Source: Actinomycetes bacterium | GTDB lineage: Bacteria; Actinomycetota; Acidimicrobiia; Acidimicrobiales; Bog-793 | Length of the DNA: 59,033 nt | Assembly: GCA_021798985.1 (NCBI GenBank) | Contig: JAJZBI010000024.1 | Span: 1-59,033 of the forward strand | Direction: 5' to 3' | Part shown: positions 38,941 to 41,290 of the stretch, one piece after another | Layout of the letters: each line of letters starts with the position of its first letter | How positions within the stretch are numbered: position 1 is the stretch's first letter | The notes under the pieces: generated by a model | Database searches by the model: none | What the model was told of the DNA's origin: nothing | What the model saw: the letters and a program-made list of their open reading frames with translations, nothing else | Position numbers and translations under genes: made by a program

Positions 38941-40059
38941 TTAGGGCGCGCCGGGCGCGCGTGGGCTCAAGGGGAGCTCCAGGGAGAAGCATGCCCCGTG
39001 TCCCGGGCCCGATGAGGTGGCGGTGAGGCTGCCACCGTGCGCCTCGGTGATGGCGCGGGCGATCGTGAGGCCGATCCCGGTGCCCGGCCCGCCGGGGTTC
39101 GACCCCCGCCAGAAGCGCTCGAAGACATGGGCGAGGTCCTCGCTCGTGAGGCCGATCCCGCTGTCGCGGACCGTGAGCGTCGCGCCCGTGGCGGCCCGTC
39201 GCACCGCCACCTCGACGACCCCTTCAGCAGGCGTCGCCCGGAGGGCGTTGCCGAGCAGGTTCGTCACGACCTGCACGAGTCGCTCGGCGTCGGCGTCCAC
39301 CACGGTTGCAGATGCGGCGTGCACGTGCAGGCTCACGCCCTTGTCCTCGAACTGGGGGGCGAGGCGCCGCGCCGCCTTGTCGGCAAGCGTGGTGAGGTCG
39401 ACGGGCGCACGCCGCAAGCTGAGCGCGCCCTCTTCGGCGCGCGAGAGCGCGGCGAGGTCGCCGCTCAACCGCTCCAGGCGCCCGGTCTCCTCGAGGGCGG
39501 ACGCGAGCATCGGGCCGTCGGGGGCGATGACCCCGTCGAGCGCCCCTTCGAGCATCCCGCGCAGCGTGGTGACGGGTGTCCGCAGCTCGTGGGCGAGGTC
39601 GCCGATGAGGCGCGTGCGCCGGCGCTCGGTCGCTGCCAGCGCCGCCGCCAGGCCGTTCACGTCCTCGGCGAGCGCGGCGAGCTCGGGCTCGCTCGGCGGG
39701 CGGACCCGCTCGTCGAAGTGCCCGGCCGCAAGGCGCCGGGCCGCCGCGCGCACGGCGTCGAGCGGGCGGAGGATGTGGCGGACGGCGAGCGTGGCGATGA
39801 GCGCGGCGACGCACAGCGCTGCGCCGACGCCGATCAGCAGCGACCAGTTGAGCGCGGAGACCAAGGTGGCGTGGGGGATCGCGTTGGCACCGGCGCGCCC
39901 AAGCCCGAGCCCTCGACCCTGTCGCCCGAGATCCCGGCCGAGGAGATAGGGGTCGAGGAGCCGCACGGCGAGGACGACCGTCGTGGCACCGATCAAGATC
40001 ACGAGCGCGTAGGAGCCGACCAGGCGGGCCCGCAGTGTGGGGCGGTGGCGCGCGCTCAC
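38941..40059 (-). CDS. Two-component sensor histidine kinase
   Basis: 372 residues: transmembrane helices at about 13-32 and 76-98 around a short extracytoplasmic loop, HAMP (RHILRPLDAVRAAARRLAAG), HisKA with the phosphorylated His in DLAHELRTPVTTLRG, and HATPase with NLLGNALRATP, VRDSGIGLT and GTGIGLTIARAI. It is EnvZ-like. The sensor loop is only about 40 residues, which suggests sensing in or near the membrane, as in kinases that respond to peptides through a partner ABC transporter. GTGA overlap with the response-regulator gene. Confidence 0.92.
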   Translation of the reverse strand: MSARHRPTLRARLVGSYALVILIGATTVVLAVRLLDPYLLGRDLGRQGRGLGLGRAGANAIPHATLVSALNWSLLIGVGAALCVAALIATLAVRHILRPLDAVRAAARRLAAGHFDERVRPPSEPELAALAEDVNGLAAALAATERRRTRLIGDLAHELRTPVTTLRGMLEGALDGVIAPDGPMLASALEETGRLERLSGDLAALSRAEEGALSLRRAPVDLTTLADKAARRLAPQFEDKGVSLHVHAASATVVDADAERLVQVVTNLLGNALRATPAEGVVEVAVRRAATGATLTVRDSGIGLTSEDLAHVFERFWRGSNPGGPGTGIGLTIARAITEAHGGSLTATSSGPGHGACFSLELPLSPRAPGAP

Positions 40060-40757
40060 GGCCGCCCCGGCTCGACGAGGCGGTAGCCGACGCCACGCAC
40101 CGTGCCGATCGCCTGGGGCGCCTCGGCGTCGTCGCCAAGGGCGCGGCGGAGGCTGGAGATGTGGACGTCGACGACTCGCTCGTCGCCGAAGAAGTCATAG
40201 CCCCACACCTGCTCGAGCAGCTGGCGCCGCGTGAAGACTCGCCCGGGCGATGACGCCAGTGCGCACAAGAGGTCGAACTCGAGTGCCGAGAGCACGATCG
40301 GCTGGCCGTCGCGCCGGACCTCGCGACGTCCGCGATCGATGTGCAGCGCACCGAGCTCGATGATCTCCTCCTCGCCACCGCTCGGCTGGCGCCGGCGACG
40401 CAGCACGGCGCGGACCCGGGCCGAGAGCTCTCGGGGGCTGAAGGGCTTGGTCACATAGTCATCGGCGCCGAGCGAGAGACCGAGCAGCTTGTCGACCTCC
40501 TCGGTGCGCGCCGAGAGGACGATGACGTAGACCGACGAGCGCTCCCGCAGCCGGCGCAGGACCTCGAGGCCATCAAGGCCAGGAAGCATGAGGTCGAGCA
40601 CGATCACGTCGGGCGGCAGGCGCTCTGCGGCGGCAAGCGCGGCCTCGCCGGTCGCGGCTTCGAGGACGACGAAGCCGTCCGCCTCGAGGTAGGCGCGAGC
40701 GACCTGGCGGATCTTGTCCTCGTCGTCGACGAGGAGCACGACCGGTTCAGGATCCAT
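40056..40757 (-). CDS. OmpR/PhoB-family response regulator
   Basis: 233 residues. The receiver domain has VVLLVDDEDKIRQVARAYLE, the phospho-acceptor in VIVLDLMLPGLDGLEV, and YVTKPFSPRELSARV with the conserved Lys. The winged-helix output domain has VLSALEFDLLCALASSPGRV and VDVHISSLRRALGD. The ATG has GGGAGGAGGG upstream. Cotranscribed with the histidine kinase. Its likely targets are the neighbouring ABC transporter and secreted peptide genes, inferred from position. Confidence 0.93.
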   Translation of the reverse strand: MDPEPVVLLVDDEDKIRQVARAYLEADGFVVLEAATGEAALAAAERLPPDVIVLDLMLPGLDGLEVLRRLRERSSVYVIVLSARTEEVDKLLGLSLGADDYVTKPFSPRELSARVRAVLRRRRQPSGGEEEIIELGALHIDRGRREVRRDGQPIVLSALEFDLLCALASSPGRVFTRRQLLEQVWGYDFFGDERVVDVHISSLRRALGDDAEAPQAIGTVRGVGYRLVEPGRP

Positions 40758-40775: not shown

Positions 40776-40805
40776 GCCGGGCCCCGCCCAAAGGCGGGGC
40801 CCGGC
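40776..40805 (-). terminator. Strong GC hairpin between peptide gene and two-component operon
   Basis: GCCGGGCCCCGCC and GGCGGGGCCCGGC pair perfectly over 13 bp around a CAAA loop, just after the peptide gene's stop. There is no U-run, so it may be an actinobacterial-type (tail-less) terminator or a processing/attenuation structure that lowers read-through into the regulator operon. Confidence 0.6.
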
Positions 40806-40822
40806 GGACTGATCAACGATGT

Positions 40823-41131
40823 TCACCGCAGCCAGTGCCACTGGCTTCCTGTGCCATCGAGCGGCCGCACGCCGGTCCGTGTCCCGTCGGTGGGACCGGA
40901 CGCGTGGTGGTACCCGCCGGGGACCGCGGCCGACGCGCGCGGCGCCACGGCGCCGTGCAGGGCGCGCCCGCCGGTGCCGTCGCGAAGATGCAGGCGCTGC
41001 TGGTCGCCGGTGCAGGTGCCCGGGCCGGGGCTGGTGCCGGTCACGCTCGCGGCGCTGGCGACGCCAACGGGCACGAGCGACATCGCGGCGAGCCCGGAAG
41101 CAACGATGCCGTAGCGAAGTCCTCTCCTCAT
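40823..41131 (-). CDS. Small secreted peptide/protein of unknown function
   Basis: 102 residues. ATG with AAGGAGG eight bases upstream. Clear signal peptide: basic MRRGLRYG, hydrophobic core to residue 24, and cleavage site ASA-ASV near 27. The mature 75 residues are Gly, Arg, His, Thr and Pro-rich with a single Cys (GPGTCTGDQQRLHLRDGTGG), ending in GSQWHWLR. No family recognised. It lies between a MacB-like ABC transporter gene pair and a two-component system, all on the minus strand, and is bounded by palindromes upstream and a strong hairpin downstream. Confidence 0.7.
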   Translation of the reverse strand: MRRGLRYGIVASGLAAMSLVPVGVASAASVTGTSPGPGTCTGDQQRLHLRDGTGGRALHGAVAPRASAAVPGGYHHASGPTDGTRTGVRPLDGTGSQWHWLR

Positions 41132-41144
41132 CTTGTCCACCTCC

Positions 41145-41176
41145 TTGCACGACTTGTCGTGCAATGACATTGCACG
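41145..41176. promoter_or_regulatory. Two overlapping palindromes upstream of the peptide gene
   Basis: TTGCACGA-CTTG-TCGTGCAA (41145-41164) and CGTGCAATG-A-CATTGCACG (41158-41176) share their middle arm, giving three alternating copies of the half-site TTGCACG/CGTGCAA. The first also forms an mRNA hairpin overlapping the Shine-Dalgarno sequence by two bases. Either protein binding or alternative RNA folding could control the peptide gene. Confidence 0.65.
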
Positions 41177-41290
41177 CCACTCGCATCAAGGTTCGACCAT
41201 CGCCACGATGAAGCTTTCGTGTTGGGCGCTGCGGGGCCCCTTGGCCGGCCTTGGGGCCGCCGGGGCCGACGCGGCAGGCCGAGACGGCGC

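Follow-up and report, generated by a model that had tools for sequence, protein, structure and literature searches.

What do two overlapping palindromes do at the head of a gene for a small secreted protein? The question is raised by contig JAJZBI010000024.1 of an uncultured member of the Actinomycetota (assembly GCA_021798985.1, 96.89% complete); "the window" refers here to this whole stretch of 59,033 nt. A preliminary description of the DNA had reported two palindromes with three TTGCACG half-sites at this leader, and had offered two readings of them: hairpins in RNA, only one of which can form because they share an arm, or overlapping sites for protein dimers in DNA. As an account of the letters, this description was exact. 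Both palindromes are present where it had placed them, their shared arm is 41158-41164, the three half-sites, at 41145(+), 41158(-) and 41170(+), are identical 7-mers, and the arm 41145-41151 does touch the Shine-Dalgarno sequence, supplying two bases (AA) of AAGGAGG. Palindrome 1, written there with arms 8-4-8, is correct as given and extends to 9-2-9 (41145-41164). The features of the locus are collected in Table 1, and positions in the leader are also given as offsets, where offset i is position 41224-i.

Table 1. Positions of the genes, promoter elements and palindromes of the locus in the window.
Feature	Position	Strand	Basis or remark
ABC ATPase gene	44567-43731	minus	
FtsX-type permease gene, upstream of small gene	43765-41291	minus	
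Predicted response-regulator box 0, CAACAC (degenerate copy of CTTCAC)	41219..41224	minus	comparison; weak alone
Predicted response-regulator box 1, CTTCAT, 11 bp from box 0	41208..41213	minus	matrix
Third conserved box, CTTGAT, offset 34	41185..41190	minus	matrix
Predicted -10 element, TGCAAT, offset 50	41169..41174	minus	T at 50 and 55 across the family
Palindrome 2, CGTGCAATG-A-CATTGCACG, arms 9-1-9	41158..41176	no strand	over predicted -10 and start
Palindrome 1, TTGCACGAC-TT-GTCGTGCAA, arms 9-2-9	41145..41164	no strand	reaches from near the predicted start to +18; in contact with the Shine-Dalgarno sequence
Shine-Dalgarno sequence of small gene, AAGGAGG	41140..41146	minus	seen in sequence
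Small secreted protein gene, 102 aa; signal peptide-like N-terminus; CTGD and DGTG motifs	40823..41131	minus	homologues
Intercistronic hairpin between small gene and regulator gene, 13 bp, GC-rich, without T-run	40776..40805	minus	
OmpR/PhoB-type response regulator gene	40056..40757	minus	PF00072, PF00486
Sensor histidine kinase gene (HAMP, HisKA, HATPase_c)	38941..40059	minus	domain matches

The arrangement was compared with chance at several levels. The window contains 12 copies of the half-site where 6.07 would be expected, a count equalled or exceeded in 3 of 100 shuffles, and three of the 12 copies are found here. Single palindromes with arms of at least 8 and loops of 0-6 are common, with 31 in the window, where one palindrome with another loop is counted again, and a shuffle mean of 23.5. 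The two that share an arm form the sole distinct pair of this kind in the window; of 200 versions of the window shuffled by dinucleotides, 9 held at least one such pair, and a second palindrome sharing an arm with palindrome 1 appeared in 72 of 5000 shuffles of its 60-base flanks. The shared-arm pair exceeds chance at a modest level, and its location adds weight to which no number is given. In the organism's own assembly, palindrome 1 has no other place at up to two mismatches and one at three (the reversed control also gave one), so there is no regulon to help name its binder. No second copy of palindrome 2 exists in the window with three mismatches or fewer and, with two extra bases, it has no exact match in viral contigs. 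As a regulon motif, palindrome 1 was rejected: its matches at up to two mismatches are scattered over 23 of 298 genomes of the order, and those of the reversed control over about 68 (counted by eye).

The promoter of the minus-strand operon provides the frame in which the palindromes can be placed. Comparison of the window with the leaders of L040, L049, L051 and L053 revealed CTTCAC boxes at offsets 0, 11 and 34 and TNNNNT at offset 50, and promoters of this type have been found at 13 related loci (the same four, L065-L068, L085-L088 and L090). A matrix made from eight of them (L040, L049, L051, L053 and L065-L068), with the window left out, puts 41224(-) at the top of about 118,000 window positions, with 32.6 bits against 14.1 for the next, and still first when the -10 columns are removed (27.0 against 11.0 bits); four of the eight training promoters had been picked by the three-box pattern itself, and L067 and L068 are near-identical. 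T is present at both offsets 50 and 55 in all nine promoters that had not been selected by their -10 (five pattern matches, the window, L049, L051 and L053). As in direct-repeat sites, the boxes of the window lie about 11 bp apart and at a fixed distance from the core promoter, with box 0 degenerate. Scans for sigma-70 consensus and for terminators found nothing; the promoter itself is well supported by computation. From the -10 at 41174-41169 and the usual distance between a -10 element and the start of transcription, the start would fall at about 41162.

The same signature has been found by pattern searches in other genomes. The three-box pattern, in which no -10 was demanded, matched in 5 of 298 genomes of the order, namely G261 (the genome of L040) and four in which the first gene encodes a SHOCT-like small membrane protein, confirmed as SHOCT by Pfam for one, and is followed by a regulator gene. 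The exact pattern misses the window by two mismatches, box 0 being degenerate. Boxes and -10 together matched in 3 of 396 genomes of the phylum: L085 is an operon for a SHOCT-like protein, a Met-rich protein and the regulator, L086 has a DUF2202 gene behind the same signature, and L087 has a short gene, a Met-rich protein and, farther down, a regulator. A search of the family around G176 gave matches in 4 of 19 genomes, of which two had been met before. That the promoter is not universal is shown by the small-protein gene of G049 (L004), which has no boxes; the rubrerythrin-like gene of the same genome has boxes 0 and 11 only. In the organism's own genome, L056 (C43) has one mismatch to the three-box pattern against the window's two, but it points away from the adjoining long frame and was not counted as a second target. 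Elsewhere, a DUF2202 gene adjoins the signature at L053, and a literature search found no paper joining DUF2202 with two-component systems. At L085 and L087, Met-rich secreted proteins with MMGG repeats stand beside SHOCT-like small proteins and the regulator under the same promoter, and one may guess that these operons serve in the sensing of copper or another metal.

In the window, the regulator and kinase genes follow the small gene on the same strand, which would place the regulator gene inside the operon that it is predicted to control; the regulator gene also lies downstream in the operon at L040, L049, L051 and L065-L068. The small protein has no family match in Pfam or NCBIfam and no plasmid match. 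In G049, a rubrerythrin-like secreted protein (L054) has the tail DGTG-x-(R/Q)W, nearly that of the small protein, which suggests a C-terminal module common to both. A strong GC-rich hairpin in the gap that separates the small gene from the regulator gene recurs with differing sequence, being plain in the window and L065-L068, visible by eye in L051 and less clear in L040 and L049. It may let the message of the small gene outlast the rest, as an excerpt of PMC5927463 describes for other operons.

Relative to the promoter, palindrome 2 (offsets 48-66) runs across the -10 (offsets 50-55) and the start, and palindrome 1 (offsets 60-79) extends from about the start to the Shine-Dalgarno sequence. 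A dyad thus overlaps the core promoter, 41158-41176 against a predicted -10 at 41174-41169, the start also being predicted. The promoter architecture and the placement of both palindromes over -10, predicted start and leader have been established by computation. The reading of the palindromes as overlapping dimer sites in DNA stands as far as position is concerned, since this fits the predicted -10, start and leader, but it is weakened by the fact that the palindromes are mostly not conserved.

This lack of conservation emerged from a comparison of 14 promoters, the window included (L066/L090 and L067/L068 are near-identical pairs), and goes against the expectation that the arms would recur in relatives. 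Palindrome 1 is found in the window alone and is absent from the 13 related promoters. At the centre of palindrome 2, at least 6 of 7 pairs are present in 2 of the 14, the window and L040, with different letters; L040 has the inverted repeat TTCACT-GAT-AGTGAA on that very centre (offset 57), where 6 of the 7 positions pair. Symmetry of this degree or higher is seen at 0.28% of centres, so that one chance match of the L040 kind among 13 promoters has a probability of about 4% (13 x 0.28%). Perfect arms of at least 6 at offsets 40-100 are found in three of the 14, that is, the window, L040 (centre 57) and L065, whose palindrome CCGGTGAA-TGG-TTCACCGG is centred on 76 (offsets 68-86). Moreover, a single TTGCACG half-site spans the start (offset 59) in each of L049 and L051, where 0.065 such 7-mers would be expected in the 13 other leaders; it stands in an identical 18-base block, and because of this shared block the two copies are taken as one event. 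The window differs from the commonest letters of the family at offset 60, which is paired in palindrome 2, and at the unpaired centre, offset 57. Judged by this comparison, the palindromes are a lineage-specific feature.

Which protein, if any, would bind them? The response regulator encoded in the operon, the binder that had been proposed, has its predicted sites upstream, at 41224-41185, and its matrices give the half-sites low scores. With an 11-mer matrix, these reach 1.3 to -0.2 bits, a level attained by 1.0-1.7% of positions, against 10.8 bits for box 1 (0.008%), 12.7 for box 34 (0.003%) and 2.8 for box 0 (0.6%). With a 6-mer matrix, boxes 1 and 34 again score above the half-sites (11.7 and 10.8 bits; 0.017% and 0.029% of positions), which at 0.1 bits (2.4%) exceed box 0 at -3.4 (7.4%). 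Given the scores of boxes 1 and 34 against those of the half-sites, the regulator seems to have its main sites upstream, though weak extra sites at the palindromes are conceivable. If the half-sites were such weak extra sites, the regulator could exert negative feedback at high levels of regulator-phosphate. This would agree with the presence of the regulator type at the window and the seven loci named above, with the match of TTGCACG to the box form CTTCACG in 5 of 7 letters, and with the rank of the half-sites over the degenerate box 0 in the 6-mer matrix; however, the 11-mer matrix ranks them behind all three boxes and the 6-mer matrix behind boxes 1 and 34, and PhoP, a regulator of the same type, is described in an excerpt of PMC7866108 as using direct and not inverted repeats. 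We regard feedback of this sort as rather improbable. A neutral coincidence, in which a lineage-specific start region merely happens to be palindromic, is also improbable: the frequency of shared-arm pairs in shuffled windows, the scarcity of the palindromes among relatives and the departures of the window at offsets 57 and 60 would all suit it, but the window has its one such pair where the predicted -10, start and leader lie, and L049 and L051 have a TTGCACG half-site in common.

The RNA readings depend on where the transcript begins. The proposed switch between two hairpins fits poorly, as the predicted start lies inside the palindromes; if it is right, palindrome 2 should be missing from the main mRNA, which would carry hairpin 1 only. 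RNAs starting at 41166-41160 and running to 41095 form hairpin 1 with a mean pair probability of 0.84-0.96. In longer RNAs, the winning hairpin shifts with the ends chosen, and exposure of the Shine-Dalgarno sequence follows these ends and not the hairpin. Since hairpin 2 would lie outside the main mRNA and the fold depends on the ends, the switch is poorly supported for this transcript. It might instead control translation in read-through RNA from the upstream permease gene, and hairpin 2 does dominate folds from 41300 or 41250 to 41095 (0.77 and 0.82); yet folds from 41300 to 41080 or 41050 favour hairpin 1 (0.90 and 0.86), that from 41300 to 41110 favours neither, Shine-Dalgarno exposure is 0.32-0.48 in all these long folds, and in short RNAs it varies from 0.11 to 0.52 with the 3' end and is 0.11 in the one without any arm (start 41144). 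A switch of this kind is highly improbable. Rfam gave five matches up to E 1, all below the gathering score. The main rival gives a role to palindrome 1 alone: its stem-loop, at the extreme 5' end of the mRNA, would protect the transcript or govern initiation beside the Shine-Dalgarno sequence, and the small-gene message would be stabilised by having this stem on one side and the intercistronic hairpin on the other. Apart from the ready formation of hairpin 1 in RNAs from the predicted start, the leaders of L065, L066, L067, L068 and L090 carry hairpins of differing sequence soon after their predicted starts (G-U pairs break the DNA symmetry in L066/L090 and L067/L068, and L065 has a perfect DNA palindrome), L088 can form one at about offset 62, and an excerpt of PMC5927463 refers to work whose title names the importance of a 5' stem-loop in the longevity of papA mRNA. 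On the other hand, 7 of the 13 related leaders (L040, L049, L051, L053, L085, L086 and L087) have no comparable hairpin after the start, the leader of the window has only a slight folding advantage over shuffles (for 50 nt, z is -1.41 and 7% of 300 shuffles fold as well; for 201 nt, z is -0.62 and 50 of 200 are as good), and palindrome 2 is left unexplained in spite of its low frequency in the flank shuffles. It is the hairpins of other sequence in five related leaders and in L088 that keep this explanation, although unlikely, as the main rival.

The explanation that we tentatively prefer, binder included, sees in the palindromes a DNA operator placed on the core promoter of a self-controlled operon that is activated by the regulator. 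Bound to the CTTCAC-type boxes upstream, the response regulator would activate transcription; the TTGCACG half-sites would be recognised by a dimeric DNA-binding protein, with one dimer per palindrome and the two competing for the shared arm. A bound dimer would block RNA polymerase and so cap expression of the small secreted protein and, via read-through, of the regulator and the kinase; the short hairpin at the 5' end of the message is probably a side effect of the operator. Among the protein readings, the leading guess for the binder is a separate dimeric repressor, followed by the regulator as its own brake. The operator is favoured because a correctly predicted start would leave palindrome 2 without an RNA role in the main mRNA, and yet this palindrome is an unlikely chance companion of palindrome 1; the inverted repeat of L040 and the half-site at the start of L049 and L051 also speak for it. 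Against it are the centre-to-centre spacing of the half-sites, which at 12-13 bp is no whole helical turn, the occurrence of the site only once in the genome, and the fact that no repressor gene common to the loci was noticed when the stretches read were looked over by eye. A very unlikely extension of the operator is a two-layer switch that depends on the start site, in which dimers compete on the -10 and start in DNA while the origin of the transcript sets the leader in RNA: mRNA made from the promoter would open with hairpin 1 on the Shine-Dalgarno sequence, and read-through RNA from the permease gene could fold hairpin 2.

The kind of feature proposed is an ordinary and already known one, with a putative function. 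Classical repressor operators can overlap the -10 and +1 with dyads, and the perfect-armed dyads over the core promoter are alike; in contrast, the two dyads of the window share an arm, are a single genomic site and have only a candidate class of binder. In ompA, a 5' stem-loop prolongs the life of the mRNA. The predicted stem of the window, within the first 20 nt of the mRNA, resembles this and the stem-loop of papA, but it abuts the Shine-Dalgarno sequence and lacks a counterpart in seven related leaders. With Bce-type modules (BceRSAB), the locus has in common that genes for an FtsX-type permease and an ABC ATPase adjoin a two-component system, whereas its kinase has a HAMP domain and scores best against BaeS models, below their cut-off. 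The outer loop of the kinase is short by eye. Filing it as Bce-type was rejected, as in G001, a genome of the same genus (68% complete), the ATPase/permease pair is followed by other genes and not by small gene, regulator and kinase. The closest likeness of the boxes is to the PHO boxes of Streptomyces PhoP, an OmpR-family regulator, which consist of two or more 11-nt direct repeat units according to an excerpt of PMC7866108: here too, two CTTCAC-type units lie 11 bp apart upstream of the start, and an OmpR/PhoB-type regulator is encoded. The window differs in its third box at offset 34, its -10 fixed at offset 50 and the control of its own small-protein/regulator/kinase operon, and its regulator scores under the NCBIfam cut-offs for PhoB and MtrA.

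The distribution of the operon is patchy. Convincing relatives of the small protein are found in G049, in G261 and, in two named MAGs, at L049 (JAUXQB010000072.1) and L051 (JAUSLQ010000286.1); a signal-like N-terminus, CTGD and a terminal DGTG-x-QW are common to them. Behind the small gene in L040, L049 and L051 (the last cut by the contig end) stands a regulator of the same type; in G049, no regulator follows the small gene within the stretch read. At E <=0.01, 9 of 60 relatives match the small protein, most of them doubtfully. Matches were obtained in 10 of 298 genomes of the order, three of them convincing (own, G049 and G261), and in 3 of 395 of the class, with 12-16 candidates scored per genome in each search and misses possible; in addition, there are three loci in genome_contigs, one being the G049 contig, and matches in 2 of 32 genomes of G261's family. 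The two other genomes of the genus in the set gave no small-protein match. The regulator is matched at E 1e-60 or better in 16 of 35 genomes of its family, own included, with 47-54% identity in the other 15, and has no match at this level in the remaining 19 of the 34 other genomes. At these 15 loci, no three-box score in the 900 bases upstream exceeds 13 of 18 letters, whereas the true relatives that were scanned reach 17-18, and no close relatives with the operon turned up among the genomes searched. The regulator is nearer to those of other families (59-60% identity to L040 and L049) than to the best matches of its own, a pattern that hints at horizontal gain or repeated loss.

If the preferred explanation is right, an operator specific to one lineage would have been added onto a conserved, regulator-activated promoter in these uncultured Actinomycetota. 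The signature itself, with boxes at offsets 0, 11 and 34 and a -10 at offset 50, marks operons for small protein, regulator and kinase, and makes their regulons searchable.
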